Assembly: GCF_002858865.1 (NCBI RefSeq)
Contig: NZ_PJRR01000013.1
Location: forward strand, 1-64,000
Length of the DNA: 64,000 nucleotides
Source: Caulobacter vibrioides
GTDB lineage: Bacteria; Pseudomonadota; Alphaproteobacteria; Caulobacterales; Caulobacteraceae
Reading direction: 5' to 3'
The translations under genes were made by a program, and so were the position numbers. The notes below the pieces were generated by a model. That model saw only the letters and a program-made list of their open reading frames with translations, did not search any database and was not told the origin of the DNA. How positions within the stretch are numbered: position 1 is the first letter of the stretch; every line of letters begins with the position of its first letter. This document shows positions 2,252-7,066 of this stretch, piece by piece.

Positions 2252-2327
2252 GGACGCCCTCCCTTTCGTCAAAAATGACGCCGGCGTCACCTATTGGCAA
2301 GCGCCTTCGACAGAGGCGGATACGGAA

Positions 2328-2356
2328 TGGGGCGGCTCGTTTCCGAAGCCGCCCCA
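2328..2356 (-). terminator. hairpin after sdhB
   Basis: A perfect 10-bp stem (TGGGGCGGCT / AGCCGCCCCA, 9-nt loop) lies just past the sdhB stop codon. There is no clear T-tract on the minus strand. It probably marks the end of the sdh transcript. Confidence 0.55.
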
Positions 2357-2379
2357 CATTTATCGCTCTGCAGCGTGCG

Positions 2380-3162
2380 TCAGACGACGCGCTCGACCAT
2401 CATCTTCTTGATTTCGGCGATGGCCTTGGCCGGGTTCAGCCCCTTGGGGCAAACCTGGGCGCAGTTCATGATCGTATGGCAGCGATAGAGCTTGAAGGGA
2501 TCCTCAAGCGCATCGAGGCGGTCACCGGTGGCCTCGTCGCGGCTGTCGATCAGCCAGCGATAGGCGTGCAGCAGGGCCGCCGGGCCCAGATACTTGTCGC
2601 CGTTCCACCAGTAGCTGGGGCACGAGGTCGAGCAGCAGGCGCACAGGATGCACTCATAAAGACCGTCGAGCTTTTCGCGGTCCTCGGGGCTTTGCTTCCA
2701 CTCGGTCTGCGGCTCGGGCGTGTCGGTGTGCAGCCAGGGCTCGATCGAGGCGTACTGGGCGTAGAACAGCGTCAGGTCCGGGATCAGGTCCTTGACCACC
2801 GGCATGTGCGGCAGCGGACTGATCTGAACCGCCTTGCCCGGCACCTCGGCCCAGCCGTGGGTGCAGGCCAGGGTGTTGCGGCCGCCGATGTTCATCGAGC
2901 AAGAACCGCAAACACCTTCCCGGCACGACCGGCGGAAGGCCAGGGTCGGGTCGATGGTGTTCTTGATGTACAGCAGCGCGTCCAGGACCATCGGCCCGAC
3001 GGCGTCGACGTCGACGTCGTAGGTGTCCCAGCGCGGGTTGCCGCCCGCTTCCGGATCGTAGCGGTAGATCTTGAAGGTCTTGACCTTCTTGGCGCCGGCC
3101 GGGGCGGGCCAGTGCTTGCCCGACTTGACCTGCGAGTTCTTGGGGAGCGCTAGCTCGACCAT
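2380..3162 (-). CDS. sdhB: succinate dehydrogenase iron-sulfur subunit
   Basis: A 260-residue Fe-S subunit of respiratory complex II, at the cytoplasmic face of the inner membrane, passing electrons from SdhA flavin to quinone. All three clusters are visible: 2Fe-2S ([10 protein letters not shown] with a following Cys), 4Fe-4S ([12 protein letters not shown]) and 3Fe-4S ([14 protein letters not shown]). Length is typical. The ATG follows the stop of the preceding small ORF by one base (TAG-A-ATG). Its ribosome site, GAGG, lies inside the last codons of that ORF, so the two are probably translationally coupled. Confidence 0.98.
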
Positions 3163-3163
3163 T

Positions 3164-3679
3164 CTACCGTCCTCTAGCTCGGTAATTGTGTTCTTCTTCC
3201 AACGCCACGATCAACCCGTTCAACGCTTCGACCTTGCCCAGCAAATCATTCGCTAACTTAGGATCCAGATCCTCGCCCTGCGTCAGGATTTCGTTCAGGC
3301 CTTCTTGTAGCTGACGACGAATATCGATCTTGCCGTATCTAATCTTATCCAACTGCTCTGCGGCTCGGAGAGAAAGTTCTTTCCGATCACCCAGATAGTG
3401 GAATGACAGGCGCTCCAAGGAGCTATCGACCCGCCACTCCGCATCGTTGAAATCACTGAGAACCTCTTCGATAGCTTCGCGAGAGGGCTGCCGCCCTTCC
3501 GCGAAATCACGGAGAAGTCCCCTTATCCCTTCCGGGGTGAAGTAAATGCGCCGCAAGGCTGCAACTATCTCATCCCGAACATCACCGTATCGTCGATCTA
3601 GGCGATCCTCTCGCCCAGAAGTCAGCGAACCTACGATCTCCAAGGCGGGCGAAAGCGTTGAAAGGACCTGCTCGAGCAC
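3164..3679 (-). CDS. unknown protein inserted between sdhA and sdhB
   Basis: A 171-residue ORF starting at a GTG (3679) six bases after an AGGGGG ribosome site and 11 nt past the sdhA stop. The protein is charged and predicted by eye to be nearly all helical, with no signal peptide, membrane segment or cysteines, and I recognise no family. GC content is visibly lower than in the flanking genes, with codons that are rare here (AGA, ATT, CTA, TTA), which suggests horizontal origin. It keeps the operon intact: same strand, tight junctions, and the sdhB ribosome site within its 3' end. sdhA and sdhB are normally adjacent, so this position is unusual. The function cannot be inferred. Confidence 0.7.
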
Positions 3680-3690
3680 CGCCTTCCCCC

Positions 3691-5478
3691 TCAGTAGACC
3701 CGTTGCTTCGGCGGGATGTAAGCGATGTCGTCCGACATGGTGTAGCTGTGGACCGGGCGGTAATCGATCTTCACCTTGCCGGTGTCGAGGTCGAGCCACG
3801 CCAGGGTGTGCTTCATCCAATCCTTGTCGTCCCGGTCGGCGAAGTCCTCGCGGGCGTGTGCGCCGCGGCTTTCGGTGCGGTTGGCCGCGCCGTTCACCGT
3901 GACGACCGCCTGGCCGATCAGGTTGTCGAACTCCAGGGTTTCCATCAGGTCGGTGTTCCACACCAAACCGCGATCGCTGACCTTGAGATCGGCCTTCTTG
4001 TCCCAGACGGCCTGCAGACGCGCAACGCCGCTGTCCAGGCTCTCGCCCGTGCGGAACACGGCGGCGTCTTCCTGCATCGCCTTTTGCATCTCAAGACGCA
4101 GTTCGGCGGTGCCGGTCGAGCCCGAGGCGTTACGGAAGCGATCGAAGCGCGCCAGGTGCGCGTCGGTCTGGGCGTCCTTCAGTTCCGGTTGCTTGGCGCC
4201 CGGCTTGAGAATCTCGGCGCAGCGCAGGGCTGCGGCGCGACCGAACACGACGAGGTCGATCAGCGAGTTGGAGCCCAGGCGGTTGGCGCCGTGCACCGAG
4301 ACGCAGGCCGCTTCGCCCACGGCCATCAGGCCCGGGATCACCTGGTCGGGATTATCGCCCGACTTGGTGACGACCTCGCCGTGATAGTTCGTCGGGATGC
4401 CGCCCATATTGTAGTGGACGGTCGGCAGCACCGGGATCGGCGCCTTGGTCACATCGACGCCGGCGAAGACCTTCGCCGTTTCCGAGATACCCGGCAGACG
4501 CTCGGCCAGGATCTTGGGATCCAGGTGGTCCAGGTGCAGGAAGATGTGGTCCTTGTTGGGACCCACCCCGCGACCTTCACGGATCTCGATGGTCATCGCG
4601 CGGCTGACCATGTCACGCGGCGCCAGGTCCTTCACGGTCGGCGCATAGCGCTCCATGAAGCGCTCGCCTTCCGAGTTGGTCAGGTAGCCGCCTTCGCCGC
4701 GGGCGCCTTCGGTGATCAGGCAGCCGGCGCCGTAGATGCCGGTGGGGTGGAACTGCACGAATTCCATGTCCTGCAGCGGCAGGCCGGCGCGCAGCGCCAT
4801 GGCGTTGCCGTCGCCCGTGCAGGTGTGGGCAGAGGTCGCCGAGAAGTAGGCGCGGCCGTAACCGCCGGTGGCCAGGATCACCATCTGGGCCTGGAAGCGA
4901 TGCAGGGTGCCGTCGTCGAGCTTCCACGCCGTCACGCCGCGGCAGACGCCGTCGTCCATGATCAGGTCGAGAGCGAAGTACTCGATGAAGAACTCTGTGT
5001 CGTGGGCCAGCGACTGGCCGTACATCGTGTGCAGCATGGCGTGACCGGTCCGGTCGGCCGCCGCGCAGGTGCGCTGGATCGGGCCTTCACCGAAGTTCTT
5101 GGTCATGCCGCCGAAGGCGCGCTGATAGATCTTGCCGTCGGGCGTCCGCGAGAAGGGCACGCCCCAGTGCTCGAGCTCGTAGACCGCCGCCGGGGCGTTG
5201 CGGGTCAGGTACTCGATGGCGTCCTGGTCGCCCAGCCAGTCCGACCCCTTGACGGTGTCGAACATGTGCCAGCGCCAGTCGTCCTGGCCCATATTGCCCA
5301 GCGAAGCGGAAATGCCGCCCTGCGCCGCCACGGTGTGGCTGCGGGTCGGGAACACCTTGGTGATGCAGGCGGTCTTCAGGCCGGCCTGGGCGGCGCCCAG
5401 CGCAGCGCGAAGGCCAGAACCGCCGGCGCCGACGACGACGACGTCAAACTTGTGGTCGATGAACTTGTAGGCCGACAT
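3691..5478 (-). CDS. sdhA: succinate dehydrogenase flavoprotein subunit
   Basis: A 595-residue catalytic subunit of complex II that oxidises succinate to fumarate in the TCA cycle. It has the FAD Rossmann motif ([16 protein letters not shown]) near the N-terminus, the SHTVAAQGG segment with the histidine that binds FAD covalently, and the active-site region around HPTGI and [10 protein letters not shown]. The ATG at 5478 shares one base with the sdhD stop (TGATG), so translation is coupled. A longer upstream frame runs through sdhD and is not real. Length is normal. Confidence 0.98.
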
Positions 5479-5897
5479 CAATGGGCTCCGGTCACGGTCA
5501 GGGCGACCTTGAGGATCGAGAAGACCCCCACGGCGCCGGCCAGCACGCAGACGAACAGGTTGCCGATCACCAGGGCGGTCTTGGTCGTGAAGCGCTCGAT
5601 ATAGTCTTCGATCACCACCTGCACCGCGCTTTGCAGGTGCACCAGGGCGGCGATCAGCAGCAGGCTCAAAAGCACGGCGTTGACGGGCTGGGCCATCCAC
5701 TGGACGACCACGTCATGCGGCGCACGCACCTGCTTGAGCGCAGCATAGGCGCCCCACACCGTCAGCGGCGCCAGGGCCAGGCCCGAAACCCGCTCGGTGA
5801 TGAAGTGGCTGACGCCGTGACGCGAGGCGCCCATGCCCCGGGCGCGCGACAGCGGCGTGCGGAACTGCTGGGGCTGAAAGAGGTCTTTCTTGCTCAT
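5478..5897 (-). CDS. sdhD: succinate dehydrogenase membrane anchor subunit D
   Basis: A 139-residue integral membrane protein with a polar N-terminal tail and three hydrophobic segments (about residues 34-55, 72-92 and 106-132). [12 protein letters not shown] carries the Ser/Arg-containing quinone-site signature of SdhD, and a histidine that can ligate haem follows in HLQSAVQVV. Together with SdhC it anchors SdhAB and binds quinone. It begins two bases after the sdhC stop codon and overlaps the sdhA start by one base. Confidence 0.95.
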
Positions 5898-5899
5898 GA

Positions 5900-6307
5900 T
5901 CAGAACGCTCCGATGCCGCCGGCGATGACCCAGGTGACGATCGTCGCCACCACCGCGAACGCGATGGCCATGGCGCCGGTCATGTCGGCCGTGCGCGGGG
6001 CGAAGCCCTTGCCGGCGTCCCAGAAGGTCTGACGGATGGTGTAGGCGACGTTGAAGAACACCGCGAAGGTCTCGCCCAGCAGCACGAGCTTGCCGATCGG
6101 CGAACCCAAGAGGCCGACATAGCTCGCATAGGCGTCGGGCCCGGCGGCCAAAGCGGCGGCCCAGCCCGCCAGGATCACGGCGCCGACCCAGAGGCCGACG
6201 ACGCAGCCGCGGTGAAGGATCGAGCAGGCCATCGTGATATGCCAACGCCACACCTGCAGGTGCGGCGACATCGGGCGCTCAGGCAGCCCCCGGCTCGTGT
6301 CGGTCAT
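5900..6307 (-). CDS. sdhC: succinate dehydrogenase cytochrome b556 subunit C
   Basis: A 135-residue membrane anchor, first gene of the sdh operon. The N-terminus RPMSPHLQVWRWHITMACSILHRGCVVGLW matches the family signature (RP.SPHL..Y......SI.HR.TG), including the Ser and Arg of the quinone site and a haem-ligand histidine. Three transmembrane helices follow. The order sdhCDAB is standard apart from the extra ORF between A and B. Confidence 0.96.
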   Translation of the reverse strand: MTDTSRGLPERPMSPHLQVWRWHITMACSILHRGCVVGLWVGAVILAGWAAALAAGPDAYASYVGLLGSPIGKLVLLGETFAVFFNVAYTIRQTFWDAGKGFAPRTADMTGAMAIAFAVVATIVTWVIAGGIGAF

Positions 6308-6347
6308 GAGAGGTCCAACCCCAGTAGCCTTTGTGCGTTGCGGGATG

Positions 6348-6375
6348 CTTTTAAGCGCGAGGGCGGGGGTGTCAA
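6348..6375 (-). promoter_or_regulatory. candidate sdh operon promoter
   Basis: On the minus strand TTGACA (6370-6375) and TAAAAG (6348-6353) are separated by 16 bp, about 40 bp upstream of the sdhC start. It resembles a sigma70-class promoter. No operator could be recognised. Confidence 0.55.
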
Positions 6376-6478
6376 TTAAACGGCGCCCTGTTGAGAAACG
6401 TTCGCAATTCTCCGCCTTGGCGGGTCGACGAGCGCATCCCAGCGCTTGAGGCGCAGGCCCTCGCCAACAATGCGAGGT

Positions 6479-7066
6479 CTAAGCCGCGCGCAGCTCTGTA
6501 AGGGCCAGGTGCTGGAGGAGCATGATCGTCTTGGCGTCGCGGATACGGCCGTCCGCGATCATGGCCAGAGCTTGCCCCATCGTCATCTCCAGGACCTCGA
6601 TGTCTTCGCCCTCATCGGGGTGGCCTCCGCCGCCGCTGATGCGCATGGCCGCATCGTATTCGGCGACGAAGAAGTGCAGGATCTCGGTCACCGATCCGGG
6701 GCTCATGAAGGCCTCGAACACCTTGCGGACTTCACCCAGGCGGTAGCCCAGCTCCTCCTCGACCTCCGCTCGGATACGGACTTCGGGCTCGGCGTCGTCG
6801 AGCAGGCCGGCTGCGGCTTCGATCAAGAGGTCGTCGCAGCCGTTCACAAAGGCCGGATAGCGGAACTGCTTGACCAGCAGCACCGTCCGGTTCTCGATGT
6901 TGTAGGGCAGAAGGACGGCGCCGTTGCCACGATCGTAGTGCTCGCGCGACTGGGTCTGCCAGGTTCCGTCGCGGCGCTTCCAGTCGAAGGTCGTGGTCCG
7001 CAGCACGTACCAGTTGTCGGAGAGCAGTCTGGTTTCGCGAACCCGAACCCGATCCTTGACCGACAT
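6479..7066 (-). CDS. nudK: NUDIX hydrolase, NudK-like
   Basis: A 195-residue Nudix pyrophosphohydrolase. The segment [25 protein letters not shown] is a Nudix box in the spacing used by E. coli NudK (AGLLDxxEPEVxIRxE..EE.GY). NLLV-type strands and the C-terminal [10 protein letters not shown] segment also match NudK/YffH. NudK hydrolyses GDP-mannose and related nucleotide sugars in the cytoplasm. The gene lies 9 nt after zapE in the same orientation, probably an operon. The exact substrate (GDP-mannose versus ADP-ribose) is inferred from the motif. Confidence 0.85.

Follow-up and report, generated by a model that had tools for sequence, protein, structure and literature searches.

The stretch of DNA analysed here (the window, 64,000 nucleotides) carries genes of the succinate dehydrogenase operon on its minus strand, with an additional open reading frame (ORF) of 171 codons lying between sdhA and sdhB. 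The features of the locus are as follows:

2380..3162, minus strand: sdhB, 260 aa, with its ATG at 3162-3160
3164..3679, minus strand: ORF for a 171-aa protein for which no relative was found; GTG start at 3679-3677, TAG stop at 3166-3164
3169..3174, minus strand: GAGGAC, likely ribosome-binding site of sdhB from reading of the sequence, within the final codons of the ORF
3686..3692, minus strand: GAGGGGG, likely ribosome-binding site of the 171-codon ORF, also from sequence reading, overlapping the sdhA stop and the gap 5' of the ORF
3691..5478, minus strand: sdhA, from MSAYKF, with its TGA stop at 3693-3691; its similarity to sister species stays at the usual level as far as the insert
5900..6307, minus strand: sdhC

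In close relatives sdhC is followed by sdhD, which overlaps the start of sdhA by 1 nt. The insert between sdhA and sdhB measures 528 nt in the window and is filled by the single ORF, which begins with its GTG 11 nt after the sdhA stop and ends with its TAG only 1 nt (base 3163) before the sdhB ATG; the GAGGAC motif is spaced 6 nt from that ATG. An ORF between sdhA and sdhB with a ribosome-binding site, tight junctions and the sdhB ribosome site inside its 3' end had been described in a first-pass annotation of this DNA, and all of these elements were confirmed from the sequence. The phrase "in frame for coupling" used there is better replaced by "tightly spaced", since sdhB has its own start codon and ribosome site. 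No match to a sigma-70-like promoter was obtained in 2300-6500, a weak terminator-like stem is located at 3565-3550 (three such stems in the scanned region versus 2.1 expected), and RNA folding at the two ends of the ORF was not unusual (z 0.83 and 0.28). The search with sdhB returned a sole match in its own genome at E up to 1e-50, so that no source of complex II other than this operon was found there.

A de novo gene or a spurious frame arising from non-coding spacer DNA would agree with the lack of detected relatives and with the finding that an open run of this length turned up, in some frame, in 78 of 5000 random sequences with matching dinucleotide content; the length of the ORF is therefore weak to modest evidence for a gene. 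Stronger evidence is provided by its composition, by which the ORF is coding: the GC content at the three codon positions is 0.67, 0.38 and 0.57, and the resulting spread of 0.29 was reached in none of the 5000 simulations. Considering also the ribosome site, the tight spacing and the fact that close species have a spacer of only 7-8 nt at this place, an origin from spacer DNA appears most improbable. Composition and codons had been reported to differ from those of the flanking genes, and this was borne out by each measure applied. The GC content of the ORF is 0.542 versus 0.65-0.67 for sdhB and sdhA, its GC3 is 0.573 versus about 0.90 for the same genes, and its codon index is 0.248 versus 0.586-0.806 for 16 window genes (leave-one-out). 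Its GC3 is also lower than that of all 48 window ORFs chosen by a simple rule, some of these being wrong-strand shadows. By GC3 and codon index, the ORF thus has the foreign composition expected of an acquired gene.

The encoded protein (19.6 kDa, pI 4.97) is acidic and hydrophilic. An AF2 model from the single sequence contained helices only (pLDDT 59; 38-41 in the other four models), and an all-helical protein is accordingly predicted with low confidence; Foldseek with this model returned 0 matches at E up to 0.001. The earlier description "no recognised family" holds in the profile searches, and the fold search gave nothing significant either. NCBIfam, PADLOC and PHROGs yielded no family, the single Pfam match, a homeodomain with E 0.18, was below the cut-off and was dismissed, the best hit of a PDB sequence search had an E of 0.12, and no VapD or Cas2 profile from Pfam, NCBIfam or PADLOC matched the protein. 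A type II toxin-antitoxin pair was rejected because it requires two adjacent small genes, while one ORF fills the insert. HEPN ribonucleases are helical toxins with the motif R-x4-6-H. This motif is absent from the 171-aa protein, which has two His only, the first with 3 residues between it and the nearest preceding Arg and the second with no Arg near it, and a Foldseek match to a HEPN toxin (E 0.45) is not meaningful.

The search for relatives among the 75 genomes of the genus returned the window's own copy only, and none was obtained at E better than 0.001 in 299 family, 385 class and 219 phylum genomes (overlapping sets). Peptide patterns applied to genome_contigs and viral contigs gave no confirmed relative, phages gave none, and plasmids gave one chance-level match (E 0.7). 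Weak matches were present in the own genome (two, E 0.067 and 1.6), in 36 of the 299 family genomes at E up to 0.1 and in 5 of the 385 class genomes at E up to 0.01, the own genome being included in both counts. Sixteen of them were examined in detail (one from the own genome, 11 from the family and all four from the class) and were rejected as relatives, since they look like chance, several being antisense frames or, presumably, FtsY. A donor or mobile vehicle for the ORF was not identified in the genome, plasmid, phage and viral searches, and with no donor or relative found, the case for acquisition rests on composition and absence.

The absence is documented by the sdhA-sdhB junction of related genomes, whose comparison had been proposed in the first-pass annotation. 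We found sdhB in 71 of 75 genus genomes and measured the junction in 69 of them, with G296 and G301 left out. It exceeded 150 nt in 14 of the 69 congeners, where it contained the window ORF, a VapD-like gene (G167), seven CreD-like genes, one methyltransferase-like gene and four GFA-like genes; the CreD, GFA and methyltransferase labels here denote resemblance to Pfam-tested members. The close set comprised 20 of the 21 top species by full-length sdhB score (G293 was left out and is empty too). In 19 of these 20 species the junction is empty with a spacer of 7-8 nt, and in the remaining one, G167, it holds the unrelated, low-GC VapD-like gene (locus L050), where GAGGAC and 6 nt likewise precede the sdhB ATG. 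Inserts were thus present in 2 of 21, the window and G167, with a different low-GC gene in each (GC3 0.57 and 0.50). In both cases the similarity of the sdhA and sdhB flanks to sister species is the usual one right to the edge of the insert; in the window the best identity is 1.00 just before and 0.97 just after it, with no mosaic drop at 100-nt resolution. Judged by these identities, the flanking sdh genes are native. At the ends of the insert only short, chance-like direct or inverted repeats were seen, a clear target duplication was not detected, and no second gene (e.g., an integrase) lies inside it.

Close relatives therefore possess the empty, intact junction expected if the gene was acquired. 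The designation "acquired gene" is supported by its absence from the other 74 genus genomes, its foreign codons and the empty sister junctions with native flanks; the opposite pattern, the same ORF across relatives with normal codon use, was not what we found, the ORF being restricted to 1 of 75 genus genomes. Occurrence in a single genome might also be expected of an assembly or binning artefact, but this is hardly credible in view of the one sdhB match, the completeness rating of 100% for the genome, the native sequence on either side of the insert and the seamless reading frames. The position within the operon, the shared strand and the tight junctions might indicate a protein that modulates complex II or helps in its assembly in this lineage, retained because it acts on succinate dehydrogenase, and a "modulator of complex II" had indeed been suggested. 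However, the protein is missing from the other 74 genus genomes and is thus not conserved with sdh across relatives as a subunit or assembly factor would be, unrelated proteins are located at the same junction in other lineages, and no family match exceeded the cut-off. A function in complex II is therefore quite improbable.

The sdh junctions were further measured across the class and beyond by means of SdhA, SdhB, SdhC and SdhD profiles, an insert being a gap of more than 150 nt (225 nt for sdhC-sdhD, where the profile begins inside the gene). Among the best 80 of 591 named loci, a selection biased to near relatives that shares some genomes with the genus set, the junction could be measured in 78; counted by length, 35 of these carried an insert at sdhA-sdhB (one of the 35, L176 with 173 nt, has no ORF of 50 codons). 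An even class sample of 40 genomes, every third row of the 130 class genomes with a match, gave inserts in 9 of 39 measurable Alphaproteobacteria. By comparison, sdhD-sdhA contained none in 71 named loci and 38 evenly drawn genomes, and sdhC-sdhD none in 70 and 38. Outside the class, where 18 of 20 hand-picked genomes were measurable, one insert was detected at sdhA-sdhB and none at the other two junctions; the sdhA-sdhB cut is stricter there because the start of sdhB in these genomes lies behind that of the profile (median gap -37). All three sets together gave 0/127 for sdhD-sdhA and 0/126 for sdhC-sdhD. The difference between sdhA-sdhB and sdhD-sdhA gave a Fisher p of 0.002 in the even class set and 2e-12 in the named loci, relatedness being ignored. 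It is a fair claim that insertions recur at sdhA-sdhB and that this junction is distinctly more open than the others of its operon. An acquired gene in such an operon had previously been called unusual; for this site that is wrong, and it is the only one of the three sdh junctions with inserts over the cut in the sets measured. An ORF ending between -12 and +15 nt of sdhB was present in 22 of 44 alphaproteobacterial inserts, so that tight joining to sdhB is common among them, not universal.

The cargo at sdhA-sdhB is diverse. When the proteins of the 44 alphaproteobacterial inserts and the window ORF were compared with one another, 38 clusters resulted at E 1e-6, a number that probably includes spurious ORFs. 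No cluster had more than five members, and the window protein clustered alone. A Pfam scan of 30 insert proteins left ten without a family at 0.001. The families recognised include methyltransferases, FkbM, family 25 glycosyltransferase, CreD, GFA, a methylguanine methyltransferase domain and homoserine dehydrogenase. Besides these, PIN proteins follow small partners in L175 and L189 (the partners' own matches being below the cut-off), a DUF4258 protein followed by a YgiT-finger, MqsA-like partner was found in L230, and DUF4160 occurs with DUF2442 in L245. Related methyltransferase genes were observed alone, beside a second methyltransferase or beside CreD in L126, L127 and L128, as if cargo had been built up stepwise at this junction.

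Cas2/VapD proteins are present at sdhA-sdhB in L140 and L180; the VapD family of NCBIfam (NF041506) gave scores of 78 and 62 against a 100-bit cut-off. VapD relatives were detected in 13 of 385 class genomes (E up to 1e-5), and in one of the 13, G547 (L278), the gene lies between sdhA and sdhB; its name is based on 61% identity to the G167 protein, with no Pfam match at 0.001. VapD has thus been found at this junction in three separate alphaproteobacterial lineages, the genes between sdhA and sdhB sharing an N-terminal IGHN motif:

L140:4150-4494: VapD-like gene
L180:1197-1523: VapD-like gene
L278, about 1540-1850: VapD-like gene

Sixteen other genomes of the family of G547 gave no VapD match at 1e-10. 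Among plasmid records, 294 carry a VapD relative; 252 of these plasmids are predicted to be conjugative, and 198 come from Campylobacter. A further VapD-like gene of this type is tightly set (about 25 and 32 nt) in another core gene pair (L279:1109-2675, minus strand), whose members we take to be tpiA and secG.

As controls, the best 30 matches were used for each of two further junctions, sucC-sucD and atpG-atpD, which gave a match in 59 and 65 of 66 genomes, respectively. Gaps of more than 150 nt were observed in 2 of 30 and 3 of 29 cases among these best 30 each, one of the three atpG-atpD gaps having 171 nt without a long ORF. The cargo included a PIN gene whose small partner is unnamed, as well as a YefM-YoeB toxin-antitoxin pair, the latter located between atpG and atpD, upstream of the atpD match, in L349. 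Nesting consequently occurs outside sdh as well. At sdhA-sdhB the rate (9/39) is higher than at sucC-sucD and atpG-atpD, the difference not being significant (p 0.10 and 0.21, relatedness ignored), and of the core junctions compared sdhA-sdhB may be the most open. One genome alone, G311, had inserts at all three junctions (L245, L300, L327), which implies that the events are unevenly spread over genomes. Its cargo consists of DUF4160/DUF2442 at sdhA-sdhB, a PIN gene at sucC-sucD and an aspartyl protease-like gene at atpG-atpD. The same genome also has a VapD-like gene after an apparent pyrG (L284).

The preference for sdhA-sdhB might reflect either insertion that is better tolerated there, or spread of cargo via sdhA and sdhB as arms, or active placement. 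Spacer length differs too little to account for the preference over sdhD-sdhA (medians of 30 and 23 nt at sdhD-sdhA versus 61 and 30 nt at sdhA-sdhB, inserts included and measured from profile starts), and there is no clear end repeat. Entry of the cargo by homologous recombination from a donor with an sdhA-cargo-sdhB arrangement, and not by direct insertion, would explain why only this junction fills, because sdhA and sdhB would be conserved enough to serve as arms and sdhC and sdhD less so; it would agree with the invasion of sdhA-sdhB and not of sdhC-sdhD or sdhD-sdhA, though sdhD-sdhA spacers are of similar length. However, neither the window nor G167 has an import footprint, the flanks being native at 100-nt resolution, and sucC-sucD, which also offers two conserved arms, was filled in only two cases. 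Such a route would also shift the first insertion to another genome without explaining it. We regard it as unlikely, although worth consideration.

We therefore favour, with a probability of roughly three in four, the interpretation that the ORF represents cargo of a single gene, acquired recently, which is read with the sdh operon and is not part of complex II. The gene probably landed in the 7-nt sdhA-sdhB spacer of one Caulobacter-like lineage. Reading of the cargo from the sdh promoter would be the simplest arrangement, because the ORF lies on the operon strand and its surroundings gave no promoter match, and translation could start from its own ribosome site. Its 3' end may then have taken over as the ribosome site of sdhB, so that SdhB would still be made. 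This capture would make clean loss of the cargo harder, as sloppy deletions would be penalised. The earlier proposal that the gene was "placed where loss would disrupt SdhB" fits this anatomy, the likely sdhB ribosome site being in the cargo. A selfish or defensive role of the protein rather than a respiratory one is a guess, suggested by the known cargoes, which include VapD, PIN pairs, a YgiT-type pair and a DUF4160/DUF2442 pair; the guess is a weak one, since elsewhere the cargo is often an ordinary enzyme or a protein without a name. A more far-reaching idea would be that core energy operon junctions of Alphaproteobacteria, above all sdhA-sdhB, serve as landing sites in which cargo such as solitary toxins and toxin-antitoxin pairs is seamlessly fitted and locks in via the ribosome site of the important downstream gene, that the 171-aa protein is a so far undescribed solitary toxin or defence protein of this kind, and that some element or process places genes there; this we consider doubtful.

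The insertion of acquired genes and ORFans into existing operons is reportedly treated by Price et al. 2006, The life-cycle of operons. Horizontally acquired genes or ORFans inserted into existing operons are also described in PMC2259305, and ORFans might represent transfer from an unknown source, according to PMC2395238. Like such acquired operon genes, the window ORF is sporadic, has a foreign composition and lies on the same strand inside an old operon. Unlike what is known of them generally, many unrelated genes have entered one sdh junction, whereas none was seen at the two adjacent junctions in the sets measured; in the window, moreover, the cargo contains the likely ribosome site of sdhB. 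VapD toxin-antitoxin systems are described in PMC11980593. In L140, L180 and L278, relatives of the VapD endoribonucleases (NF041506) occupy the junction that holds the ORF in the window, whereas the 171-aa protein has no VapD or Cas2 match and only a low-confidence all-helical model. Type II toxin-antitoxin pairs (PIN, DUF4258 with the YgiT/MqsA-like partner, YefM-YoeB) occupy the same kind of site at sdhA-sdhB, sucC-sucD and atpG-atpD; in contrast, the window has one ORF, no pair and no family match. No report of sdhA-sdhB as an insertion hot spot was found in the titles and abstracts searched, a scope mostly outside the subscription literature.

Operon insertion is known generally, and the repeated arrival of unrelated cargo, some of it toxin-antitoxin genes, at one core junction with closed neighbours constitutes a natural experiment. 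The sdhA-sdhB junction allows one to test what makes operon junctions permissive, and whether cargo is retained via capture of the ribosome site of an important downstream gene. As a discovery, the site is more interesting than the protein.

Downstream of the operon, the contig of the window (window:1-600) and contigs of other Caulobacter-like assemblies (G116, G121, G130, G134 and G164) end about 2.2-2.6 kb past sdhB, which suggests an assembly-breaking repeat at that place.
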